From positions 1 to 35,902 of the forward strand of contig CANQYW010000020.1 in assembly GCA_947628185.1 (NCBI GenBank): a stretch of DNA of 35,902 bases, written 5' to 3'. Of this stretch, positions 2,444-14,075 are shown in pieces. Numbering within the stretch: the first letter of the stretch is position 1; each line of letters opens with the position of its first letter. The translations under genes were made by a program, and so were the position numbers. The notes beneath the pieces are model-generated. The model was not told where the DNA came from. It searched no databases and saw only the letters and a program-made list of their open reading frames with translations. This stretch comes from an uncultured Oscillospiraceae bacterium. GTDB taxonomy: Bacteria > Bacillota > Clostridia > Oscillospirales > Oscillospiraceae.

Positions 2444-3154
2444 TTAGCCGATAGTCACTTTTATTGAGATGAAGTTTATCATCATGTGGAGGAACACCGG
2501 CCCCCAGATGTTCCGGGAGTAGCTGTAGCACCAGGCGAGGACTATCCCGGCGGGGATGTACTGGAGCATGTAGAGCAAAAGCTCCGGCGAGAAGGAGAAT
2601 ATGAGCTCCTGCCACAGGTGGTAGAAGGAGAAGAGGAGACAGGAGACAACGTAGGCCAAAAACGCGCTCTTGCGGCGGATGGTCCCGAAGACGACGCCCC
2701 TAAATAGCGTCTCCTCCACCACCGGCGCGAGGAGTACGGCTGTGGCCACCATGGAGTTGGGGTTTAGTTTCGTCACCGCCTCCACCGCCGCCTGGTTGGG
2801 GTTCGTGAGGTCGGAGAGGAACCCGCTGAGCACGAGACTGACAACGCTGGAGAGGAGCACGTTCGCCACGTACCCCAACATCACCGCCACCAGGGTGTTG
2901 AGGAGGTTCCCCCAGAGGTCCGCGAAGGACTCCCGCAGGAAGTGAAAGAGGAATATGAGCAGGAATATGAACCCCACGAAGTACCAGACGAAGTTGAAGA
3001 CGATCTCATTTAGCTGGAACCCAAACATGGGGAATAGGTACGTGTTCATGGCCGCCAGTATGTACACCATGGCGAAGGAGTGGACAAAGACGTATATCCA
3101 GCCGACGACGGCCTCAGTCTTGTTCATGGGGTGGAGAAACGATTGCTTTTTCAT
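2444..3154 (-). CDS. CPBP family intramembrane metalloprotease (CAAX/ABI-like)
   Basis: The 236-residue membrane protein belongs to the CPBP (CAAX protease and bacteriocin-processing) family. The predicted catalytic motifs are all present: EETLFRG near residue 147, a histidine in FSFYHLW near residue 178, and HMMINF near the C-terminus. About seven hydrophobic segments surround them. Family members cleave inside membranes or mediate bacteriocin self-immunity; the substrate here is unknown. Its start codon overlaps the stop of mutS by four bases (ATGA), so it is translated from the miaB-mutS transcript. That link to mismatch repair may be purely positional. Confidence 0.88.
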   Translation of the reverse strand: MKKQSFLHPMNKTEAVVGWIYVFVHSFAMVYILAAMNTYLFPMFGFQLNEIVFNFVWYFVGFIFLLIFLFHFLRESFADLWGNLLNTLVAVMLGYVANVLLSSVVSLVLSGFLSDLTNPNQAAVEAVTKLNPNSMVATAVLLAPVVEETLFRGVVFGTIRRKSAFLAYVVSCLLFSFYHLWQELIFSFSPELLLYMLQYIPAGIVLAWCYSYSRNIWGPVFLHMMINFISIKVTIG

Positions 3155-5748
3155 TCGGATACCTTCTTCTTTAGTTCAAAAAGGAGATTCAGGGCCTCCA
3201 GGGGCGTCATGGTGTTGAGGTCCGTGGAGCGCAGGAGCTCCGTCACCTCGTCGCCCCGCACCGCGTCCATGGAGACCTGCTCCCGGGCGTCCTCCGGCGC
3301 GGCGGAGGGCGCGGCGGCGCCGGCCGTGGCCACGAGGCCCCGGAGGATGGTCTTTGCCCGGCGGATGACGTTCTCCGGCACACCGGCTAAGTGCGCCACC
3401 TCTATGCCGTAACTGTCGTCCGCGCCGCCGGGGACTATCTTCCGCAGGAAGATTATGTCGTTGCCCCGTTTCTTGGCGGAGATGTTGTAATTCTTGACGC
3501 CGGGGACCTCGCTCTCCAGCTCCGTGAGCTCGTGGTAGTGGGTGGCGAACATGGTCTTGGCCCCGAGCCTCCGTTTGTCGGCGCAGTACTCCGCCACAGC
3601 CCTGGCTATGGCCATGCCGTCGTAGGTGGAGGTGCCCCGGCCTATCTCGTCAAGGATTATGAGGCTCCGGGATGTGGCGTTTTTGAGTATCTCGGAGACC
3701 TCGCTCATCTCCACCATGAAGGTGGACTTGCCCCCGGAGAGGTCGTCCGAGGCGCCGATCCTTGTAAAGACCCTGTCAACTATTGAGACGGAGGCGGAGC
3801 GGGCCGGGACGAAGGAGCCCATCTGGGCCATGAGGACTATGAGCGCCGTCTGGCGCATGTAGGTGGACTTGCCGGCCATGTTGGGGCCGGTTATTATTGA
3901 GAGGGAGGAGGCGGCGTTATCGAGGTATGTGTCGTTGGGGACGAAGAGCTCGTCTTTGCGCATGAGCTCCACCACCGGGTGGCGGCCGTCCCGGATGTCC
4001 AGGACCCCGTCCGCCGTTATCTCCGGGCGGACCCAGTTTGAGCTGACGGCGCAGTGGGCGAAGGAGCAGAGGACGTCGAGCTGCGCCACCGCCGAGGCCG
4101 CCGCCTGTACCCGCAGCACCTCCCCGGCCAGCCGTTCCCGGAGCTCACAGTAGAGCTTATACTCCAGCTCCACAAGTTTCTCCCCGGCGGAGAGGAGCTG
4201 CCCCTCCAGCTCCTTGAGCTCCGGCGTTATAAAACGCTCGCAATTTACGAGTGTCTGTTTTCTTATGTAGTCCTCGGGCACGTCGGAGGACTGGGAGCGG
4301 GGGATCTCGATGTAGTAGCCGAAGACCTTATTGAAACCCGTGCGGAGTTTCTTGCCGGTGCGGGCCTTCTCCCGGGCCTCTATCTCGGATAGGAGCGCGC
4401 CGCTGTTGTCCCGGAGTTCCCGGAGCCTGTCCACCTCCTCGCTGAAACCCTCGCGGATGAATCCCCCCTCCCGGACAGAGAAGGGTGGGTCGTCCCGGAT
4501 GGTGGAGGTGATGAGATCCCCCAGATCCTGCAGGGCGTCCATGCCGCGTATCTCGGCGAGGACTTGTGAGCGCTTGCCATCCAGGAGCTCCTGGAGCTTG
4601 GGGAGGGTGTGGATGGAGGAGGCCAGCGCCACGAGGTCCCGGCAGTTCACGGTGCCGTAGACCGCCTTGCCGATTATCCGCTCCATGTCCCCCACGCCCC
4701 GGAGGGCTATCATGAGCTCTGGCCGGGCCACGTTGTCGGTGTATAGCTCCTCCACCGCCGCGAGCCTCCGGCCTATCGCCGCGGGGGAGAGGAGGGGCCG
4801 GGAGACCCAGGACCTTATGAGCCGGGAGCCCATGGGCGTGCGGGTCTTATCGAGGGCCCAGAGGAGACTCCCTTTCTTCTCCCCGGACCGCAGGGAGCCC
4901 AGGAGCTCCAGATTCCTTATGGTGGTGAGGTCCAGCTCCATGTAGCGGCCGTCGGAGCAGAAGTCCAGTTTATTTATGTATGATAGATCCGCCTTCTGGG
5001 TCTCTATGACGTAGGAGAGCAGCGCCCCGATGGCGGAGACCGCCTGGGGCTCGCCGGAGAGGCCCAGTTCATCGACGCTCGCCGCCTTAAACTGCCTGCA
5101 GACGCCCTCGGCGGCCACGGTGTAGTCAAACCGGGGCTCCTGGGTCTCCACGAGAGCCCCGAACTGGTCCCGGAGGAGGCTCACGAGTTCGTTCCAGTCA
5201 CCGGCGGCGGCGTTCAGCACCGCCTCGGCGGGGGTGACGCAGGCCAGCTCATTTAACACCCTGTCCCTCTCGGAGGCGGGGTAGGAGCGGGCCCGGATCT
5301 CACCTGTTGAGATGTCCGCTGAGCATATGGCCGCGGCCTGGGAGTCTAAGTGGATGGCGCAGATGTAGTTTGACTTCCCCTCCTCCAGCATGGAGGACTC
5401 GACGCATGTGCCGGGGGTGACTATCCGCACGATGTCCCTGTCCACCAGACCCTTGGCGAGGGCCGGGTCCTCGAGCTGTTCGCAGATGGCAACCTTGTAG
5501 CCCTTGGCTATTAGCCGGGCTATGTACGCCTCGGAGGAGTGGTAGGGCACGCCGCACATGGGCACCTGATCCTCCCGGGGCTTATTGCGGTCCCGGGTGG
5601 TGAGGGTGAGGTCCAGCTCCTGGGAGACGGTCTTGGCGTCCTCGTCGAACATCTCATAGAAGTCGCCCAGGCGAAAGAAGAGGATGCAGTCGCTGTGCTG
5701 TTCCTTTATGCGTTTATATTGCCTCATCATTGGGGTGGGTTCTGCCAT
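3151..5748 (-). CDS. mutS: DNA mismatch repair protein MutS
   Basis: The 865-residue protein is a full-length MutS. It recognises mismatched bases and recruits MutL. The mismatch-reading Phe-X-Glu triad is in GDFYEMF near residue 30, followed by the connector, the core/clamp and the C-terminal ABC-type ATPase. Walker A GPNMAGKST is near residue 620 and Walker B plus signature regions (DLSGGKSTF, LDEIGRGTS) follow. The C-terminus ends with the usual MTPLEALNLLFELKK helix. The position of the sliding-clamp-binding motif (QLSFF in Bacillus subtilis) holds QVSMD, a poor match. The gene lies 20 bases after miaB with GAGGG seven bases before the ATG, and overlaps the CPBP gene. Confidence 0.98.
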   Translation of the reverse strand: MAEPTPMMRQYKRIKEQHSDCILFFRLGDFYEMFDEDAKTVSQELDLTLTTRDRNKPREDQVPMCGVPYHSSEAYIARLIAKGYKVAICEQLEDPALAKGLVDRDIVRIVTPGTCVESSMLEEGKSNYICAIHLDSQAAAICSADISTGEIRARSYPASERDRVLNELACVTPAEAVLNAAAGDWNELVSLLRDQFGALVETQEPRFDYTVAAEGVCRQFKAASVDELGLSGEPQAVSAIGALLSYVIETQKADLSYINKLDFCSDGRYMELDLTTIRNLELLGSLRSGEKKGSLLWALDKTRTPMGSRLIRSWVSRPLLSPAAIGRRLAAVEELYTDNVARPELMIALRGVGDMERIIGKAVYGTVNCRDLVALASSIHTLPKLQELLDGKRSQVLAEIRGMDALQDLGDLITSTIRDDPPFSVREGGFIREGFSEEVDRLRELRDNSGALLSEIEAREKARTGKKLRTGFNKVFGYYIEIPRSQSSDVPEDYIRKQTLVNCERFITPELKELEGQLLSAGEKLVELEYKLYCELRERLAGEVLRVQAAASAVAQLDVLCSFAHCAVSSNWVRPEITADGVLDIRDGRHPVVELMRKDELFVPNDTYLDNAASSLSIITGPNMAGKSTYMRQTALIVLMAQMGSFVPARSASVSIVDRVFTRIGASDDLSGGKSTFMVEMSEVSEILKNATSRSLIILDEIGRGTSTYDGMAIARAVAEYCADKRRLGAKTMFATHYHELTELESEVPGVKNYNISAKKRGNDIIFLRKIVPGGADDSYGIEVAHLAGVPENVIRRAKTILRGLVATAGAAAPSAAPEDAREQVSMDAVRGDEVTELLRSTDLNTMTPLEALNLLFELKKKVSE

Positions 5749-5768: not shown

Positions 5769-7175
5769 TTATATAAGTTCTCCGTACAGTGCCCAGGTGT
5801 TGCTGCCGGTTATTTTAACGTCCCTGAAGGACCCGATGAGCTGCCGGTCCGCGCCCTCTATCCGCACGAGCCGCCCGCCGCCGGTGCGGGAGGTGAGGCG
5901 CCCCTCCTCCTCGCCGTCGATGAGCACCCGCTGGGTGGTGCCAATGTACTGCCTGTGGCGCTCCTCGGATATGGAGTTCTGGAGGGCGAGGAGCCTGTCA
6001 AAACGCTCCTGTTTCTCCTCCCTTGTGGCGGGGTCCGGCATGGTTGCCGCCGGGGTCCCGGCACGCTTTGAGTAAATGAATGTGAATAGGGCGTCAAATC
6101 CCACCCGGCGCACAAGGTCCATGGTGCCCTCAAAGTCCTCCTCCGTCTCGCCGGGGAACCCCACTATGACGTCGCTGGTGAGCACCACGTCCGGCATGTA
6201 TGAGCGGGCCATGTCCACAAGGGCGAGGTAATCGTCCCTCGTGTAGCGGCGGTTCATCTCCCGTAAAATGCGGTCGCTGCCGGACTGGAAGGGTAGGTGG
6301 ATGTGCCTTGCGGCCTTGCGGCAACGCGCCATGGTGGAGAAGAGTTTCTCACCGGCGTCCTTGGGGTGGCTCGTCATGAACCGAATGAGGAACTCCCCCG
6401 GGATATCGTCTATCCGCTCAATGAGGTCGGAGAAGTCGACGCCGCAAGAGAGGTCCTTCCCGTAGGAGTTGACGTTCTGCCCTAAGAGCGTTATGTCCTT
6501 ATATCCGGCAGCGACGAGCCCCCGGGCCTCGGAGAGCACGTCCTCGGGCATACGGGAGCGCTCCCGCCCCCGCACGTATGGCACGATGCAGTAGGAGCAG
6601 AAGTTATTGCAGCCGTACATCACCGGGAGCCACGCCTTGACGGACCCGTCCCTCGCGGAGGGGAGGCCCTCCGCCACCACGCCCTCGGAGGGGGCGGTCT
6701 CAAATATCCTCTTCTCCCCCCGCAGGAGCCTATCTAAGAACTCCGGGAAACGCCAGAGGACGTGTGGCCCGAAGACGAGGCTCACGTGGCGGTAGGAGTT
6801 TTTTATCCTCGCCGCCATGCCCTCCTCCTGCATCATGCAACCACAAAGGGCAATTATCTGGCTGGGTTTCGCCTTTTTCGTGTGGCTCAGCGCCCCCACG
6901 TTCCCCAGGACCCGCATCTCGGCGTGTTCCCGGACGGCGCAGGTATTTATTACGATGACGTCCGCCTCCGCCTCGGAGGAGGTCATCTCGTAACCCATCC
7001 TCCGCAGCATGCCCCGGAGCTTTTCGCTGTCGGCCTCGTTTTGCTGGCAGCCGTAGGTGTCAACGAGGGCCAGGGGCGGCGAGGGGAGGGCGGCGCTACG
7101 CTCCGCCACCCGCTCCATTATGGCCTCCTCGCGGGCCAGGGCCTCTTTTGAGATCTCGATTCTTTTGTAACTCAC
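5769..7175 (-). CDS. miaB: tRNA-2-methylthio-N6-dimethylallyladenosine synthase MiaB
   Basis: The 468-residue radical-SAM methylthiotransferase converts i6A37 to ms2i6A37 in tRNAs reading U-starting codons. The N-terminal domain has its three cluster cysteines (DTYGCQQN, NTCAVRE and LCGCMM contexts). The radical-SAM cluster motif CNNFCSYC is near residue 170, and a TRAM domain (RVLIDGEEEGRL) closes the protein. I chose the GTG at 7175, because GGAG sits eight bases upstream; a longer frame beginning with TTG at 7193 would contain that site inside the gene. It is the first gene of a miaB-mutS-CPBP transcript, and its i6A-making partner MiaA is encoded 3 kb away on the other strand. Confidence 0.97.
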   Translation of the reverse strand: MSYKRIEISKEALAREEAIMERVAERSAALPSPPLALVDTYGCQQNEADSEKLRGMLRRMGYEMTSSEAEADVIVINTCAVREHAEMRVLGNVGALSHTKKAKPSQIIALCGCMMQEEGMAARIKNSYRHVSLVFGPHVLWRFPEFLDRLLRGEKRIFETAPSEGVVAEGLPSARDGSVKAWLPVMYGCNNFCSYCIVPYVRGRERSRMPEDVLSEARGLVAAGYKDITLLGQNVNSYGKDLSCGVDFSDLIERIDDIPGEFLIRFMTSHPKDAGEKLFSTMARCRKAARHIHLPFQSGSDRILREMNRRYTRDDYLALVDMARSYMPDVVLTSDVIVGFPGETEEDFEGTMDLVRRVGFDALFTFIYSKRAGTPAATMPDPATREEKQERFDRLLALQNSISEERHRQYIGTTQRVLIDGEEEGRLTSRTGGGRLVRIEGADRQLIGSFRDVKITGSNTWALYGELI

Positions 7176-7210
7176 TTTAGAAACTCCAAACAAAAAATAT
7201 ACTCAGCCTT

Positions 7211-7239
7211 ATTTTAACAAATAGTTATAGAATTTACAA
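7211..7239 (-). promoter_or_regulatory. Putative sigma-A promoter for miaB-mutS
   Basis: On the minus strand, TTGTAA (7239-7234), a 17-base spacer and TAAAAT (7216-7211) lie about 36 bases upstream of the chosen miaB start, in an AT-rich island between divergent genes. Confidence 0.6.
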
Positions 7240-7268
7240 TGATAATCGTGTATAATAAGTGCTATAAT
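7228..7268 (+). promoter_or_regulatory. Putative promoter region for the racemase-like gene and mutL
   Basis: Two perfect TATAAT hexamers occur on the plus strand at 7251-7256 and 7263-7268, 22-39 bases before the racemase-like start. Neither has a strong -35 box at the right distance; TAGAAT at 7228-7233 is 17 bases before the first. The region overlaps the minus-strand miaB promoter, so the two transcripts may compete. Confidence 0.45.
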
Positions 7269-7289
7269 TTCTTCCGCGGGGGGTAGGGT

Positions 7290-8345
7290 ATGAAGAGTCT
7301 CGTTATAGATACAAAGGCTGTCAAGGGCAACGTGGCTGCCGTGAAGGCCCGGGTGCGCGGCGCGCAGATCTGGGCGGACCTCACGGGGGACGCCTTCGGC
7401 ATGGGCCTCCTGCCCACGGCGCGGCTCCTGAGGGAGGCGGGCATCAGGACCTTCGCCGTCTCCGACCCCAAGGACGCCGAGACCCTCCGGGGCGCGGGTT
7501 TCACGGAGGAGACGCTGGTGATGCTACGCAGTACGGCGGACGAGGAGGAGCTCTCCCGCCTCATTGACATGAACGTTGTCTGCACCGTGGGCTCCCACGA
7601 CGCCGCCGTGGTGCTAAACTCCCTGGCGGAGAGCCGCAAGACCATCTGCGAGGTGCAGATAAAGGTGGACACCGGCCTTGGCCGCTACGGCTTTTTGAAG
7701 GCGGAGACGGACAAGATAGCCTCAGTCTACAGGTACATGTCGAACCTCGCCGTGGTGGGCGTGTTCTCCACCTTCTCCGAGTCCTGGAAGAATAAGAAGG
7801 TGACGAACGCCCAGTACGAGGAGTTCCGGGACATACTCTCAAAGCTCCACAGCATGGGATTTGAGACGGGCCTCTGCCACATCTGCGACTCCGCCGCGCT
7901 ATTTAAGTACGACTTCGACCTCATGGACGCCGTCCGGGTGGGGACGGCCTTCTCGGGCCGTGTGGCCGGTGGTTCCATCCCCAGCCTCACGAAGGTGGGC
8001 TACATAGAGGCGGGAATAGAGGAGGTGGGCTGGTTCCCCAAGGGGCACGGCGTGGGCACCTCGGTACTGAAGCGCCCGGCGAGGCTCGCGGTGGTGTCCG
8101 TGGGGTACTACCACGGGTTCGGCGTGGAGCGGCAGGAGCTGGGCCAGGGCCTCATGGACAAGATCCGCTCCTGGCGGCGCCGGCCCAGCGTGAAGATAGG
8201 CTCCAAGAAGGTGAAGATAGTGGGGCAGATAGGCATGATGCACACCATTTTGGACGTGACGGACATCGAGTGCCGCGTGGGGGACATCGTCACCATGGAC
8301 GTGGACCCGGTGAACGTGAAGGGACTGCCCCGGGTGTATAGGTGA
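7290..8345 (+). CDS. Alanine-racemase-fold protein lacking the catalytic residues (predicted pseudoenzyme)
   Basis: The 351-residue protein has the alanine racemase layout: a PLP-type barrel (1-230) and a C-terminal beta domain. Fold markers are conserved: KVDTGLGRYGF (125-135, with R132), HICDSAALF (197-205), VRVGTAFSGR (216-224). The residues that make the chemistry are not. The PLP lysine of the KANAYGHG motif aligns with T32 in LTGDAFGMG. The catalytic tyrosine segment (VSYGATY in Bacillus-type enzymes) reads GHGVGTSV (252-259). The GYADGY motif is GYYHGFG and the GRICMDQ motif is GQIGMMHT. It is therefore unlikely to racemise alanine; it may bind a ligand or a partner. The frame is intact and mutL begins three bases after it, so it is not a decaying pseudogene. 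Its ribosome binding site is a G-rich run before the ATG. Confidence 0.85.
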   Translation: MKSLVIDTKAVKGNVAAVKARVRGAQIWADLTGDAFGMGLLPTARLLREAGIRTFAVSDPKDAETLRGAGFTEETLVMLRSTADEEELSRLIDMNVVCTVGSHDAAVVLNSLAESRKTICEVQIKVDTGLGRYGFLKAETDKIASVYRYMSNLAVVGVFSTFSESWKNKKVTNAQYEEFRDILSKLHSMGFETGLCHICDSAALFKYDFDLMDAVRVGTAFSGRVAGGSIPSLTKVGYIEAGIEEVGWFPKGHGVGTSVLKRPARLAVVSVGYYHGFGVERQELGQGLMDKIRSWRRRPSVKIGSKKVKIVGQIGMMHTILDVTDIECRVGDIVTMDVDPVNVKGLPRVYR

Positions 8346-8348
8346 TTT

Positions 8349-10271
8349 ATGGCGAAGATATTTGAGATGCCCCCCCACATGGCGGACCTCATCGCCGCCG
8401 GCGAGGTGGTGGAGAGGCCCGGCTCCGTGGTGAAGGAGCTGGTGGAAAATTCAATAGACGCCGGGGCCCTCAGCGTGACGGTGGAGATAGCAAACGGCGG
8501 CATGTCCATGATCCGCGTGACGGACGACGGCTGCGGCATAGCCTACGAGGACGCGGAGCGGGCCTTTTTGCGCCACGCCACGTCGAAGGTCCGGGAGGAG
8601 CGGGATCTGGAGGCCATCGGCACCCTGGGGTTCAGGGGCGAGGCCCTGGCGGCGATATCCGCCGTCTCCCGGGTGGAGCTCCTCACGCGGGAGAGGGGCG
8701 CTGCGGAGGGGACGCGCCTCCGGCTCGAGGGGGGCGTCACGGTGGAGAAGGGCCCCGCCGGCGTGCCGGAGGGCACCACCATGATAGTGCGGGACCTATT
8801 CTACAACACCCCCGCCCGGCAGAAGTTCATGAAAAACGACAGGGCCGAGGCCTCCAACGTCTCGGCGGCGGTGGTGAGGCTGGCCCTCTCCCACCCGGAG
8901 GTCTCCATAAGGTACATAAGGGACGGCCGCGAGGAGTACCACACCCCGGGGGACGGGCTCCTCAGGTCCTGCGCCTACTGCACCCTGGGCCGGGAGTTCG
9001 CCCGGGAGCTCATCGAGGTCAAAAGCGCCGCGGAGGACATATGCGTCTCCGGCCTCATCTCCACCCCGGCGGCGGCCCGGGGCAACAGGGCCTGGCAGTT
9101 CTTCTTCATAAACGGCAGGTTCGTGAAGTCGAAACTCATACAGGCGGCGCTGGAGCAGGGATATAAGAACTCACTCTTCACGGGTAGGTTCCCCGTCTGC
9201 GTGCTGAACCTCGATATGAGTCTCGCGAGCGTCGACGTGAACGTCCACCCCACGAAGATGGAGGTGCGTTTCACCCGGGAGCGGCAGGTCTTTGACGCGG
9301 TCTACTGGGCCGTGAGGGGCGCTCTCGAGGGGGAGGAGGGCCCTGCGGAGATAACACTCTCGGAGAGCACCGTGAGGGCCCTGGGCGGCGCGCCCGCGAG
9401 AGCCGACGCGCCAAGATCCGGCGCGACCGGTGTCAAAGTTTCCGCGCCGGAGGATAAAAAGCCCAATTCTCCCCAGGGGGCGTTCCTCTCGGGAAAAGCC
9501 GGGGGCGGCGGGAAGGGCGGATTTTTTAAGACCTACTCAGCAGATGAGTATAGGGCGAAGTACGCCGGGGGCGCGGAGCCCCGCCGGGAGACGCCGCCCT
9601 CCAAACCCCGGGAGACCCGGGCGGTACTCCACGATAGCTCCGGTCTTATCTACGAGACCTCCATGCCCATGCCCATCGAGCGGCCCCCCACGGAGGAGCC
9701 CCCGCCGCCGAGGGACGACTTCCGGTACGTGGGCGAGGCGCTCAATACCTACCTCATAGCGGAGTGCGGGGAGAGCATATTCCTAATAGACAAGCACGCC
9801 GCCCACGAACGGATGCTGTTTGATAAGCTGAAGGCGGAGGACTACGTGCCGGAGTCCCAGGAGCTCTTGGCGCCCGTCATATGCCGGGTGAGCGAGGAGA
9901 CCGTCAGCACCATAGTCGAGAACGGGGAGCTCTTGCGGTCCCTGGGGTTCGACATCGACGACTTCGGCGGCGGGAGCGTCGCCATCCGGCGGGTGCCCAT
10001 CGACATGGACCTGAGGGCCCCGGAGTCGCTGGTGGAGGAGATCGCCGGGAAACTGCGCCTGGGAGCGGACCTCCAGGACCGCCGGGACGGGGTGCTCCAC
10101 TCCGCCGCCTGCAAGGCCGCCATAAAGGCCGGCCGCCGCAGCGACCCCCGGGAGGTGCAAGAGCTCATCGCCCGGGTCCTCTCCGGCGAGATACGCTACT
10201 GCCCCCACGGCAGGCCCGTCTCCGTGGAGCTGAGCCGCCGGGAACTTGACAAGATATTCAAGAGGACATAA
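8349..10271 (+). CDS. mutL: DNA mismatch repair protein MutL (endonuclease type)
   Basis: The 640-residue MutL couples MutS mismatch recognition to strand removal. The N-terminal GHKL ATPase shows GEVVERPGSVVKELVENS, DDGCGI and FRGEALAAIS. A low-complexity linker of about 100 residues (roughly 335-435, Pro/Gly/Lys-rich) leads to the dimerisation domain. The metal-binding endonuclease motif DQHA(X)2E(X)4E appears as DKHAAHERMLFD from D481, with Gln to Lys and the last Glu to Asp. ACK and CPHGRP elements are present, so nicking activity is likely. QELLAP at 504-509 fits the position of the clamp-binding QEMIVP motif of Bacillus MutL. AGGTGA overlapping the upstream stop acts as ribosome binding site. 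Confidence 0.97.
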   Translation: MAKIFEMPPHMADLIAAGEVVERPGSVVKELVENSIDAGALSVTVEIANGGMSMIRVTDDGCGIAYEDAERAFLRHATSKVREERDLEAIGTLGFRGEALAAISAVSRVELLTRERGAAEGTRLRLEGGVTVEKGPAGVPEGTTMIVRDLFYNTPARQKFMKNDRAEASNVSAAVVRLALSHPEVSIRYIRDGREEYHTPGDGLLRSCAYCTLGREFARELIEVKSAAEDICVSGLISTPAAARGNRAWQFFFINGRFVKSKLIQAALEQGYKNSLFTGRFPVCVLNLDMSLASVDVNVHPTKMEVRFTRERQVFDAVYWAVRGALEGEEGPAEITLSESTVRALGGAPARADAPRSGATGVKVSAPEDKKPNSPQGAFLSGKAGGGGKGGFFKTYSADEYRAKYAGGAEPRRETPPSKPRETRAVLHDSSGLIYETSMPMPIERPPTEEPPPPRDDFRYVGEALNTYLIAECGESIFLIDKHAAHERMLFDKLKAEDYVPESQELLAPVICRVSEETVSTIVENGELLRSLGFDIDDFGGGSVAIRRVPIDMDLRAPESLVEEIAGKLRLGADLQDRRDGVLHSAACKAAIKAGRRSDPREVQELIARVLSGEIRYCPHGRPVSVELSRRELDKIFKRT

Positions 10272-10294: not shown

Positions 10295-11215
10295 ATGCTA
10301 AGTCGCGTCTACGTTATAACAGGGCCCACAGCCACCGGCAAGACGGAGCTGGGCGTCAGGCTCGCGGAGAGCCTGGGCGGGGAGGTGGTGTCCGCGGACT
10401 CCATGCAGGTCTACAGGCACATGGACATCGGCACCGCTAAGCCCACAGCCGCCGAGACCCGGGGCGTACCCCACCACATGATAGACGTGGCCTCGCCGCT
10501 GGAGGATTACTCCGTCTCAAGGTATGTGGAGGACGCGGCGGCGTGCTGTGATGATATATTGTCCCGGGGCGCTATACCCCTGATAGTCGGCGGCACGGGG
10601 CTTTATATAGACTCCCTCATCTCCGGGAGGGACTTCTCCCCGAGGCCCCTGGACATGGAGCGCCGGCGTGAGCTGGAGGAGCTCTATGACCGCCTTGGCG
10701 GGGAGGCGATGCTGGAGAAACTGGGTGAGAGCGACCCCGCGCGGGCGGCGGTGCTCCACCCCAACGACAGGAAGAGGATAGTCCGGGCCCTTGAGGTCGC
10801 GGCGGAGGGCGGCAACATATCCAAGCACGACATCCGCACCCGCGCCGCCGAGCCCCGGTACGAGGCGAAATACATCGTCCTGGGGTACGAGGACCGAGGG
10901 GAGCTCTACGGCAGGATAGACGGGAGGGTGGACGACATGCTCTCCCGGGGGCTAATTGAGGAGGTGGAGGCCCTACTGAAAATGGGCGTCACCCGCCGCC
11001 ACACCGCCCTTCAGGCCATAGGCTATAAGGAGGTGGCCGCGGCCCTGGCGGGAGATATGGCGATGGATGAGGCTATAGAGACAGTTAAGAGGGAATCCCG
11101 GCGCTACGCAAAGCGGCAGATATCCTGGTGCAAACGCTACAGCGGGGCGCTCAGGATAAATTGGAAAAACGGGCCGGATTTTGAGGACGCCCTCCGGCGT
11201 TCGACAGCTTTTTGA
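10295..11215 (+). CDS. miaA: tRNA dimethylallyltransferase MiaA
   Basis: This 306-residue enzyme transfers a dimethylallyl group from DMAPP to A37 of tRNAs reading U-starting codons, giving the i6A that MiaB then methylthiolates. The P-loop [10 protein letters not shown] is at residues 10-19, followed by [18 protein letters not shown], the substrate-binding [10 protein letters not shown], and the C-terminal [13 protein letters not shown] segment. It starts 23 bases after mutL with AAAGGA about 12 bases before the ATG. The order mutL-miaA-hfq matches that of Enterobacteria, a widely conserved neighbourhood. Confidence 0.97.
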
Positions 11216-11291
11216 CTGCCAGAGGTTTATGATATACAGGCAAAAATTAGAGCCCCCATATAATTGGGGAGAAAAGAAAGGCGGATTACAA

Positions 11292-11558
11292 ATGTCAAAA
11301 GTACAAAACCTGCAGGATTCCTTCTTGAGAGAGGCGCGCCGCCGCAGGACGCCCCTGACTGTCTTCCTGGTGAACGGTTTCCAGATGCGCGGGACCGTCC
11401 AGGGGTACGACAACTTCACCGTGATACTGGAGAGCGAGGGCAAACAGCAGATGATCTACAAGCACGCCATCTCCACAATTGCCCCGCTGAGACCCGTAAA
11501 TCTCCCGGAGATGGGCGAGAGTGAGGAGGAGACCGAGGAATTTGCTCTGAACTCGTAA
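11292..11558 (+). CDS. hfq: RNA chaperone Hfq
   Basis: The 88-residue protein is a hexameric Sm-like RNA chaperone. Sm1 ([22 protein letters not shown]) and Sm2 (YKHAISTI) are complete, and NLQDSFL is the usual N-terminal helix with Q8 at the uridine-binding face. The rim patch aligned with E. coli RRER (16-19) reads RRRR, and the short C-terminal tail is very acidic (ESEEETEE). Both features are unusual for a Gram-positive Hfq. The start at 11292 is set by homology and an AAAGGCGG site; an ORF extending upstream to 11181 overlaps miaA. It lies 76 bases after miaA and may be co-transcribed. Confidence 0.96.
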
Positions 11559-11564
11559 GTTGGG

Positions 11565-11594
11565 TTGGACAAGCGGTCAAAAGTGTGATACAAT
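11565..11594 (+). promoter_or_regulatory. Putative promoter upstream of the HlyD-like gene
   Basis: TTGGAC (11565-11570), an 18-base spacer and TACAAT (11589-11594) with a TG dinucleotide one base before it (extended -10) lie in the 104-bp gap after hfq. It would drive the HlyD-like, yggS and sepF genes. Confidence 0.6.
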
Positions 11595-11662
11595 ACACTA
11601 ATTAGCAAATACATATTTATCAAGAGGACAAGCTTATTTTTAGCGGGAGGGGGGAGCTTTAA

Positions 11663-12844
11663 GTGGAGAGAAGTGATTCGCTCATAAAACTTGTATCGGT
11701 GCTGGCGTTCATAGCGCTGGCTGTGTACATAGGGGTGTCGCTTTTCACAAGCTGGAACGACCCCCTCCAGACCGTTATAGCCACCGGGGCGGAGCTCCGG
11801 GACGGACTTGAGACCACCGGCCACATAGTGCGGGAGGAGAGCGTCCTCACCGCCACAGGCTCCAACATAGCGGTGACAGCCGTGGAGGGGGCGAAGCTGG
11901 CCTCCGGGGAGACGCTGGCGGTGCAGTACGTGGGCGCCGCCGCCATGGAGCGGGCAAAGGAGATAAACGACATCCAGCAGAGGATACGTCAGCTCACGGA
12001 CCTAAAAAACGGCAGGGACAGCGAGGACATGGCAAAGAAGACCATGCTCCAGCTCTCCGAGGCCGTTATGGGCCGGGACCTCGACGATCTATACTCCATT
12101 GAGGGCGACGCGGACGCCTACATCATCACCGGCAGCGCCCTCGCCACCGGCGGGGAGGACGCGGAGATAGAGCGCCTGAGGGCGGAGCTCACAAGGCTGG
12201 GGGAGGTCTCCGAGGCGGATACGGTGCGCATAACGGCGCCGTTCTCCGGCACCTTCTCAAACACCACCGACGGATATGAGGAGGTGGGCCCCGAGGACCT
12301 TGAGAACCTGACGCCCTCCGGGCTCCGGGAGCTATTTTCCACCTCCAAGAGCGTGGGCGTGGGGGCCGTGGGCAAGATGGTCCGGGGCATACGCTGGTAC
12401 TACGTCACCACATTGAGCGAGGCGGACGCCTCCAAGCTCCGGGTGGGGGGCTACGCGGACGTGCGGTTCTCCCGCACATACAGCGCGGACCTCACAATGT
12501 ACGTCCAGAGCGTCAGCACCCCGGAGAAGGGGGAGTGCGCCGTGGTGCTCTCCTGTGACAGCTACATGCAGGATGTGGCCGCCATAAGGGAGGCCCAGGC
12601 GGAGATAATATTCGGTTCCATCACCGGCGTCAGCGTCCCCAGGGCGGCGGTGCATCTTGACGAGGACAACAACACCTTCGTCTACGTGCTCCGGGGTCTC
12701 CGGGCGATCAGCGTTCCGGTGAAGATCCTGGCGGAGAGCGGGGACTACTACATCATGGAGGAGGCCCGCGACGGGCTCCGGGTGGACGATATCGTCATCC
12801 TCCGGGCCAACAATCTATATGACGGCGCGGTGGTGGAGAGATGA
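11663..12844 (+). CDS. HlyD-like membrane-anchored adaptor protein, no export partner
   Basis: The 393-residue product has a short cytoplasmic N-terminus, one membrane helix (about residues 8-28) and an extracytoplasmic region. A lipoyl/barrel-like part (VTAVEGAKLASGETLAVQY, then RITAPFSGTF near 190) brackets an alpha-helical segment, and the C-terminal half carries barrel strands (VSVPRAAVHLDEDNNTFVYVL). This fits HlyD/RND-type periplasmic adaptor folds, though no transporter or outer-membrane factor lies nearby. The start is GTG at 11663, supported by a GGAGGGGGGAG run. It overlaps yggS by four bases and leads into sepF-divIVA, so a role at the envelope or division site is possible but unproven. 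Confidence 0.75.
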   Translation: MERSDSLIKLVSVLAFIALAVYIGVSLFTSWNDPLQTVIATGAELRDGLETTGHIVREESVLTATGSNIAVTAVEGAKLASGETLAVQYVGAAAMERAKEINDIQQRIRQLTDLKNGRDSEDMAKKTMLQLSEAVMGRDLDDLYSIEGDADAYIITGSALATGGEDAEIERLRAELTRLGEVSEADTVRITAPFSGTFSNTTDGYEEVGPEDLENLTPSGLRELFSTSKSVGVGAVGKMVRGIRWYYVTTLSEADASKLRVGGYADVRFSRTYSADLTMYVQSVSTPEKGECAVVLSCDSYMQDVAAIREAQAEIIFGSITGVSVPRAAVHLDEDNNTFVYVLRGLRAISVPVKILAESGDYYIMEEARDGLRVDDIVILRANNLYDGAVVER

Positions 12845-13551
12845 GCGAGCTGGACATCGCCCGGCGCGCCGGGCAGGTAATCGAGAGGGCCGCTAAGGCG
12901 GCAGTCCGCTCCGGCCGCAAGCCGGAGGACGTTATAGTTTTGGCGGCGTCCAAGATGAACGGCGCCGCGGCGGTGAGAGCCGCTTTCGACGGGGGCATAC
13001 GGGTCTTCGGAGAGAACCGGGCCCAGGAGCTGTTGGAGAAGTCGTCCCAGGGGGCATACGCCGGGGCGCAGCTCCATTTCATAGGACACCTCCAGCGAAA
13101 TAAGGTGAGGAGCCTTGTGGGCAAGGTGGACCTAATTGAGTCCGTGGACAGCCAGGAGCTTTTAAGGCTCATCGGTGAGCGGGCGGGCGCGCTTAGCGTC
13201 ACCCAGGACGTGCTAATTGAGGTGAATATCGGCGGCGAGGCCGCAAAGTCCGGCGTGGAGCCCGGGCGTTTGGGGGAAATTTTGGACTTCGCGGCGGGAA
13301 TTTCCGGCCTTCGGGTCCTGGGACTCATGGCAATACCCCCGGCCGGCACGAAAAAAGACGTTTTAGACCGTTATTTTCAACAGATGCGCAACCTTTTTGT
13401 TGACATGCGGGGAAAAAAATACGATAATATCAGTATGGACCTGCTTTCCATGGGAATGAGCGGAGATTTTGAGGAGGCCATCCTCAACGGCGCGAATCTC
13501 GTTCGCGTGGGCACCGCCATCTTCGGGGAGCGCCAGTACGTTAATAAATAA
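12841..13551 (+). CDS. YggS/PLPBP family pyridoxal 5'-phosphate homeostasis protein
   Basis: The 236-residue protein is a single-domain PLP-binding barrel of the YggS/YlmE family, which controls PLP and amino-acid pools but has no known catalysis. The PLP lysine is present in VLAASKMN (near residue 39), unlike in the racemase-like protein upstream. Other signatures are VFGENRAQEL, HFIGHLQRNK, IEVNIGGEAAKSG, LMAIPP, SMGMSGDFEEAI and VRVGTAIFG. The ATG overlaps the previous stop by four bases. Location directly before sepF is the classic ylmE-ylmF order of Firmicutes; ylmG and ylmH of that cluster are absent here. Confidence 0.95.
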   Translation: MSELDIARRAGQVIERAAKAAVRSGRKPEDVIVLAASKMNGAAAVRAAFDGGIRVFGENRAQELLEKSSQGAYAGAQLHFIGHLQRNKVRSLVGKVDLIESVDSQELLRLIGERAGALSVTQDVLIEVNIGGEAAKSGVEPGRLGEILDFAAGISGLRVLGLMAIPPAGTKKDVLDRYFQQMRNLFVDMRGKKYDNISMDLLSMGMSGDFEEAILNGANLVRVGTAIFGERQYVNK

Positions 13552-13604
13552 ATTTAATCTATAAATCAATCAATCTACACCTATAGAGATTTGGAGGAAC
13601 TTCC

Positions 13605-14075
13605 ATGGGACTGCTTGACGAACTTAAAAAACTTACACGCCCCTATGACGACGAGGACGACGAATTTGAGGATTTCAAACCCCGCGCCCCGGAGAAGATA
13701 CCCGTGACCCCCCGCACGGCCACGCCCACCCGTGTGCCCACCGGCAACTCGCTGGAGGAGCGCCGGGAGCAGAACCGGGTGGTGAACATCCACGCCACCA
13801 CACAGCTCAAAGTGGTCCTGGTGAAACCCGAGCGCTTTGAGACCGCCGCCGAGATAGCGGACCACCTGAGGGAGAAACGCACCGTGGTGCTGAACCTCGA
13901 GCAGACGAACAAGGACGTGGCCCGCCGCCTCATCGACTTCCTCTCCGGCGTCGCCTACGCCCAGGACGGCAAGATAAAGAAGGTCGCCGTGAACACATAC
14001 CTCATAACGCCCTACAACGTGGACCTCATGGGGGACCTCATCGACGAGCTGGAAAATAACGGCCTCTACTTCTGA
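13605..14075 (+). CDS. sepF: Cell division protein SepF
   Basis: The 156-residue SepF bundles FtsZ filaments and ties them to the membrane. It begins with an amphipathic membrane-binding helix (MGLLDELKKLTRP), followed by an acidic and proline-rich linker. The SepF core starts near residue 72 (TTQLKVVLVKPERF) and includes VVLNLEQTNKDVARRLIDFLSG and VAVNTYLITPYNV. A TTGGAGGAAC site lies just before the ATG. The gap from yggS is 53 bases. Its neighbour DivIVA works in the same polar/septal system. Confidence 0.97.
   Translation: MGLLDELKKLTRPYDDEDDEFEDFKPRAPEKIPVTPRTATPTRVPTGNSLEERREQNRVVNIHATTQLKVVLVKPERFETAAEIADHLREKRTVVLNLEQTNKDVARRLIDFLSGVAYAQDGKIKKVAVNTYLITPYNVDLMGDLIDELENNGLYF

Follow-up and report, generated by a model that had tools for sequence, protein, structure and literature searches.

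Locus organisation

The DNA analysed here, termed the window, is a stretch of 35,902 nucleotides from an uncultured Oscillospiraceae bacterium (GenBank assembly GCA_947628185.1, contig CANQYW010000020.1, positions 1 to 35,902), and it contains a gene for a homologue of alanine racemase (Alr) that lacks the lysine holding the cofactor pyridoxal 5′-phosphate (PLP). The open reading frame (ORF) of this pseudo-racemase begins with an ATG at 7290, ends with a stop codon at 8343–8345 and has no internal stops. It lies among genes of mismatch repair and tRNA modification, as follows.

7290..8345, forward strand: pseudo-racemase gene, 351 aa, with alanine racemase N and C domains
8349..10271, forward strand: mutL, with its ATG at 8349, 3 nt past the pseudo-racemase stop
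5769..7193, reverse strand: miaB, the divergent neighbour, listed from a TTG (the true start may be further in)
3151..5748, reverse strand: mutS, neighbour on the miaB side
10295..11215, forward strand: miaA, downstream of mutL
7239..7268, forward strand: promoter-like ATGATA-18-TATAAT with TG ahead of the second hexamer, a consensus match only, 21 nt before the start codon

An initial annotation by a model had described an intact frame nearly abutting mutL, and the exact coordinates bear this out. The 3-nt spacing, together with a promoter-like site found only upstream, suggests that the pseudo-racemase gene and mutL form an operon in the window; no terminator-like site was found within 7100–8500. 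Past miaA, the region 11181–14075 holds ORFs that by eye are Hfq-like, HlyD-like, YggS-like (12841–13551) and SepF-like.

Predicted fold and catalytic residues

Pfam assigns the 351-residue protein both domains of alanine racemase above the cut-offs (Ala_racemase_N, 1.3e-40; Ala_racemase_C, 2e-8), and together they span residues 6–336, which predicts the whole two-domain fold. The NCBIfam models for VanT-G and alr also match, every one below its curated cut-off: TIGR00492 (alr) scores 129.9 bits against a cut-off of 168, and NF033131 (VanT), the best NCBIfam match by E-value, 137.2 bits against 460.

For the catalytic residues we compared the protein with the genome's own canonical Alr, which is encoded elsewhere (L002, 1243–2379), has standard motifs and shares 28% identity with it. 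Residue numbers and roles for Alr are those of the Geobacillus stearothermophilus enzyme, in which Lys39 is the PLP lysine. Aligned in this way, Lys39 is replaced by T32, Tyr43 by F36, His166 by T161, Asn203 by D200, Tyr265 by T257 and Asp313 by M317, whereas Lys129 (K125), Asp131 (D127), Arg136 (R132), His200 (H197), Ser204 (S201) and Arg219 (R216) are kept. The positions that matter most below, all on the forward strand and placed by alignment, are these.

7377..7379: Asp30, an acidic residue gained two positions ahead of the PLP lysine's column
7383..7385: Thr32, in the column of the PLP lysine (phmmer and MAFFT alignments)
7662..7664: Lys125, equivalent of Alr Lys129, kept
7668..7670: Asp127, equivalent of Asp131, kept in 195/200 family rows
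7770..7772: Thr161 at the His166 position
7887..7892: Asp200-Ser201 at the Asn203-Ser204 positions, the Asp specific to group a (98%; groups are defined below)
8058..8060: Thr257, in the column of the catalytic Tyr265

The placement of T32 agrees in all five phmmer alignments printed against solved Alr chains and in the MAFFT alignments with the genome's own Alr. The column of Tyr265 holds T257 or an alignment gap, depending on the alignment, and the C-terminal stretch that carries Tyr354 is absent. Two conserved motifs are altered as well, GYADG to GYYHG and GRICMD to GQIGMM. These residues are much as the initial annotation had read them by eye: threonine in place of the PLP lysine, no catalytic tyrosine and both motifs changed. 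It had also named another lysine in the PLP site as something that would undo its reading. We considered Lys125, which is the equivalent of Lys129 and is present in 46 of 54 group-a rows, and Lys251, which sits in a C-domain loop, and rejected both; no replacement lysine stands out in the alignments, a comparison of sequences and not of distances.

Relatives and the history of lysine loss

A scan of GTDB species genomes returned 26 loci at 54–77% identity, all full-length and stop-free, from Sporobacter termitidis and from metagenome-assembled genomes titled Oscillospiraceae, Ruminococcaceae or Clostridiales. Profile searches gave matches in 136 of 200 genomes sampled from the window's own family (E 1e-20, canonical Alr counted in), 128 of 394 from the order (1e-40) and 60 of 391 from the class (1e-36), the weakest of these last (about 127–137 bits, near the threshold) being perhaps ordinary Alr and left out of the fetched set. 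From the fetched loci we obtained 200 distinct family rows, each 200 aa or longer, with the genome's own Alr excluded and a 75-aa fragment (L168, a second hit) kept out of the group counts. All three of the catalytic Lys, Tyr and His are present in 106 of these rows, none in 79, and 15 are mixed.

For the tree, rows more than 62% identical were dropped to leave 104, and eight long-branch rows were then dropped to leave 96, on which a careful maximum-likelihood analysis was run after removal of the segments at the three diagnostic columns; each of the 200 rows carries the group label of its nearest tree row. All rows without the lysine fall in a single clade of 28 rows (support 100/98), which is nested inside Lys-bearing Alr-like proteins mostly encoded beside FemAB-family genes and thus shares common descent with them. 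The clade comprises branch a, which holds the window (11 tree rows, 100/94), its sister group, branch b (12 rows, 100/99, with the locus L103 alone bearing Lys), and branch f2 (5 rows, 100/98), in which four rows have Lys and none has Tyr265.

The same picture emerges from the full set. Position 32 in the 54 rows of group a is Ser in 36, Thr in 17 and Asn in one, and never Lys. In the 30 rows of group b it is Thr in 19, Ser in seven, Ala in two, Met in one and Lys in one; the nine f2 rows have Lys in eight and Ala in one, with Tyr265 in none. The remaining 107 rows form a Lys-bearing group with Lys and Tyr in all 107 and His in 106. Lys, Tyr and His are lost together in 52/54 group-a and 26/30 group-b rows, and Tyr alone in 7/9 f2 rows.

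Forcing the 22 non-Lys rows of a and b into a clade without L103, which would represent a single loss of Lys, is rejected (p-value of the approximately unbiased test, p-AU, 0.003), while a clade of a and b that includes L103 is not (p-AU 0.295). A quick tree unites a and b and implies three changes of Lys state; the careful tree sets f2 beside b and implies four, and the exact place of L103 within b is weakly supported. If Lys was never regained, at least three losses are needed, in branch a, in branch b and at L201 in f2. A recent mutation or an assembly error in the window was also considered and rejected: all 54 group-a rows lack the Lys, which excludes chance as well. A recent point mutation, which the initial annotation had allowed for, does not fit, since the Lys-bearing homologues sit on other, deeper branches, except for f2 and L103. 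By the alignments and the tree, branch a lost its Lys long ago, and its members have that loss in common. L103 itself (genome G037, 318 onward) keeps the Lys and has lost both Tyr265 and His166; an ORF 241 nt after this gene looks ATP-grasp-like by eye and has no Pfam match.

Gene neighbourhoods

Each of the 54 group-a rows has at least one of mutS, mutL and miaB within reach: mutL follows on the same strand in 52, and miaB lies upstream and divergent in 41 (in another orientation in one, L026), though short flanks hide some neighbours. The two rows without mutL are L014, with 482 nt of downstream DNA, and L044, with 1500 nt. The spacing to mutL ranges from 0 to about 680 nt. In group b, a divergent miaB is found in 15 of 30 rows, nine of these also having mutS, a radical-SAM gene lies downstream in nine rows, and mutL is in reach of none of the 30. 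A D-Tyr-tRNA deacylase gene follows the lysine-free gene within about 40 nt in nine group-b loci (L057, L058, L060, L061, L064, L075, L083, L085 and L096). Other neighbours were labelled HolB, DarA and PSP1 by eye.

The Lys-bearing relatives have a different usual neighbour. Scoring adjacency as a match to the FemAB profile upstream, on the same strand and within less than 700 nt, we found a FemAB-family gene in 93 of the 107 Lys-bearing rows (a representative matches PF02388 at 3e-67), and in none of the 93 rows of a, b and f2, in eight of which the upstream DNA is shorter than 600 nt, so that a FemAB gene could be missed. In the window, miaB stands divergent where FemAB would be directly upstream. 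An Orn/Lys/Arg decarboxylase gene follows in 17/107 Lys-bearing rows, and the f2 rows keep it (8/9, a representative being checked by Pfam) without FemAB. The FemAB-linked family of 107 rows (for instance L065, L108, L118, L143 and L150), with its intact Lys, Tyr and His, may be a racemase tied to the synthesis of peptidoglycan bridges.

The pattern extends to whole genomes. FemAB is present somewhere in 25/25 Lys-bearing genomes of the window's family, these being the 29 own-family genomes with a fetched Lys copy less four that also hold an eroded copy and were tested with the eroded set. It is likewise present in 9/9 Lys-bearing genomes of f7, f13 and f15. By comparison, only 3 of 46 genomes of the eroded clade have it (3/26, with 0/12 for f2, 0/1 for G037 and 0/7); apart from the last seven, these genomes, like the nine of f7, f13 and f15, were selected by the state of their Alr copy, and G134, G242, G274 and G336 were counted by genus or family, their own copies being unread.

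Selection and a proposed remodelled pocket

Ratios of nonsynonymous to synonymous substitution (Nei–Gojobori dN/dS) are 0.02–0.26 in the 12 group-a pairs with finite dS, 0.02–0.32 in 15 non-Lys pairs (one pair with saturated dS aside) and 0.03–0.08 in three Lys-bearing pairs, which show the close pairs to be under purifying selection; many columns are invariant among 18 relatives. The initial annotation's view of a maintained pseudoenzyme thus holds at the level of sequence, with the loss common to all 54 group-a rows, 26 open frames and low ratios. A hydroxyl residue stands at the lysine position in 79 of the 84 rows of a and b, and as it is encoded variously by AGY, TCN and ACN codons, the hydroxyl itself appears to be under selection.

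Other residues have changed around it. Position 30 is Asp in 94% of group a and Val in 93% of the Lys-bearing group, and position 200 is Asp in 98% of group a and Asn in 90% of the Lys-bearing group. Further polar residues kept in group a are K125 (46/54), D127 (53/54), R132 (43/54), H197 (42/54), and D200 and S201 (53/54 each). Going by the structures of Alr, positions 30 and 200 lie by the cofactor site; because two conserved aspartates were gained there, we infer that the ligand pocket has been remodelled in group a, with Asp30, Ser/Thr32, Asp127, Asp200 and Ser201 as its candidate residues.

Interpretation

We find it reasonably probable that the gene encodes a maintained, PLP-free pseudo-racemase, derived from a FemAB-partnered racemase-like ancestor, whose remodelled pocket binds a ligand non-covalently. 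As close relatives keep the loss of the catalytic residues, the protein probably does a job other than racemisation. The ancestor would have been a clostridial racemase-like protein encoded beside a FemAB-type ligase. Loss of that partner in one Oscillospirales lineage may have left racemase chemistry no longer needed, after which the active site could have eroded piecemeal, through Tyr265 alone in most of f2 and through Lys39, Tyr265 and His166 in most of a and b. The protein would have been kept for something else, with its gene placed by miaB/mutS, so that a divergent miaB or mutS now adjoins the gene in branch a and in half of the branch-b rows, with mutL following it in branch a. The two-domain barrel fold is predicted to be retained and dimerisation is presumed. 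With a hydroxyl at the lysine position and Asp30, Asp127, Asp200 and Ser201 in the old cofactor site, the protein would most likely act by binding a small polar or cationic ligand non-covalently, in the manner of a sensor or carrier protein, and would not racemise.

Several observations weigh against this interpretation. FemAB is present in the window's own genome, in another genome of the same genus (G020) and, as a weak match, in G072. The gene in the window's genome (L220, 5015–6106, reverse strand, contig C15) stands alone, beside no Alr, and its best match among the FemAB neighbours, at 47% identity, is from another family of the class (f80). The FemAB rule is also imperfect on the other side, since among seven Lys-bearing genomes picked for FemAB not being adjacent only two have it anywhere and five lack it. 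Four genomes (G013, G063, G076 and G199) hold both an eroded copy and a divergent copy with an intact triad, and no FemAB, and the 15 mixed rows have lost only part of the triad, with one or two residues remaining. The loss of FemAB and the erosion both fall in one deep clade and so come near to counting as a single event in evolution; the link between them is therefore an association and not a proven cause. Asp30 and Asp200 are confined to group a, and as the pocket of group b differs, one common ligand is not implied. Finally, a genome of the same genus (G181, 98% complete) has miaB next to mutL, the gene being absent between them and without a match elsewhere in the genome, so the gene is dispensable.

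Among the alternatives, a new PLP-independent enzyme, in which the mouth of the barrel is rebuilt as an active site with a set of Asp, Ser, Thr, Lys and Arg residues, would account for the polar residues conserved there in group a and for the hydroxyl kept at position 32. We consider it unlikely: K125, R132, H197 and R216 are each missing from some group-a rows, the Lys129, Arg136 and Asn203 sites are mostly Gln, Phe and Gly in group b, and beyond mutS, miaB, mutL and miaA the neighbours of group a showed no metabolic gene that was evidently conserved.

Since the active sites of Alr are located where the two subunits of the dimer meet, the pseudo-racemase could be imagined as a regulatory partner of canonical Alr through a heterodimer. 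The full fold with its C domain is kept and a canonical Alr is encoded in the same genome, but the two proteins are only 28% identical and G181 does without the gene, which makes such a partnership quite improbable.

The initial annotation had placed its pseudoenzyme in a new role within the mismatch-repair/tRNA-modification locus, and a non-catalytic accessory protein of either process would fit the frequent mutL and miaB neighbours of group a and the suggested operon. The link to mutL is nevertheless weak, because branch b lacks mutL, the spacing varies and G181 has miaB and mutL without the gene; moreover, the gene that normally accompanies the Lys-bearing relatives is FemAB. The maintained pseudoenzyme is supported by sequence; the proposed role in the locus is conjectural, as are the ligand sensing or scaffolding that the initial annotation suggested, and we regard an accessory function as very unlikely. 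That the gene is decaying without function is scarcely credible: it is absent in G181 and has no match in G064, G003 and G066 at the mutL loci fetched from these genomes, but decay is contradicted by the selection data, with 26/26 intact frames, ratios well under 1 and many invariant columns.

Returning to the PLP-free pseudo-racemase, a broader reading, which we offer tentatively as one possibility, is that the Alr fold gave up PLP chemistry across the lineage after FemAB loss and became a cofactor-free ligand receptor or enzyme, with a selected Ser/Thr in place of the lysine and two aspartates gained in the pocket; this would make it a new functional family spread over many genera of the window's family. 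The lysine-free branch, the intermediates that keep Lys and have lost Tyr, and FemAB as the likely ancestral partner would together offer a natural series from a cofactor enzyme to something else. They also draw attention to a clostridial family of FemAB-linked racemase-like proteins with a possible bearing on peptidoglycan bridges. In the part of the literature covered by our search, we recognised no work on a lysine-free alanine racemase family or on FemAB-linked Alr-like proteins.

Comparison with known systems

D-cycloserine acts on alanine racemase, and an annotation by Pfam domains alone would give the whole clade that enzyme's name despite the missing PLP-holding lysine. The pseudo-racemase shares with alanine racemase (TIGR00492, PF01168 and PF00842) the whole fold, with the N-terminal barrel, the C-terminal beta domain and the KxDTGxGR and VRVG motifs, and differs in lacking the PLP lysine, the catalytic tyrosine, His166 and the Tyr354 end and in scoring below the family cut-off. 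The catalytic domain of the serine racemase VanT (NF033131; PDB ID: 4ecl) is close in structure. VanT, however, carries an N-terminal membrane domain, whereas the 351 residues here are filled by two Alr domains only, as judged from their span, have none of the catalytic residues and score far under the VanT cut-off. YggS/PLPBP is a single-domain fold-III PLP protein with a barrel of the Ala_racemase_N type, from which the pseudo-racemase differs by its extra C-terminal PF00842 domain and by Thr at the lysine site. Nearest in the tree are the FemAB-adjacent clostridial Alr-like proteins (for instance L108 and L143), which share its shortened C terminus and, in most rows, a Gly at the Cys311 column, but keep Lys, Tyr and His, mostly follow FemAB, and pass TIGR00492 in both of the two representatives scanned. 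What we describe is a pseudoenzyme branch of the Alr fold, and its apparent ancestry from the FemAB-linked family is the new part.
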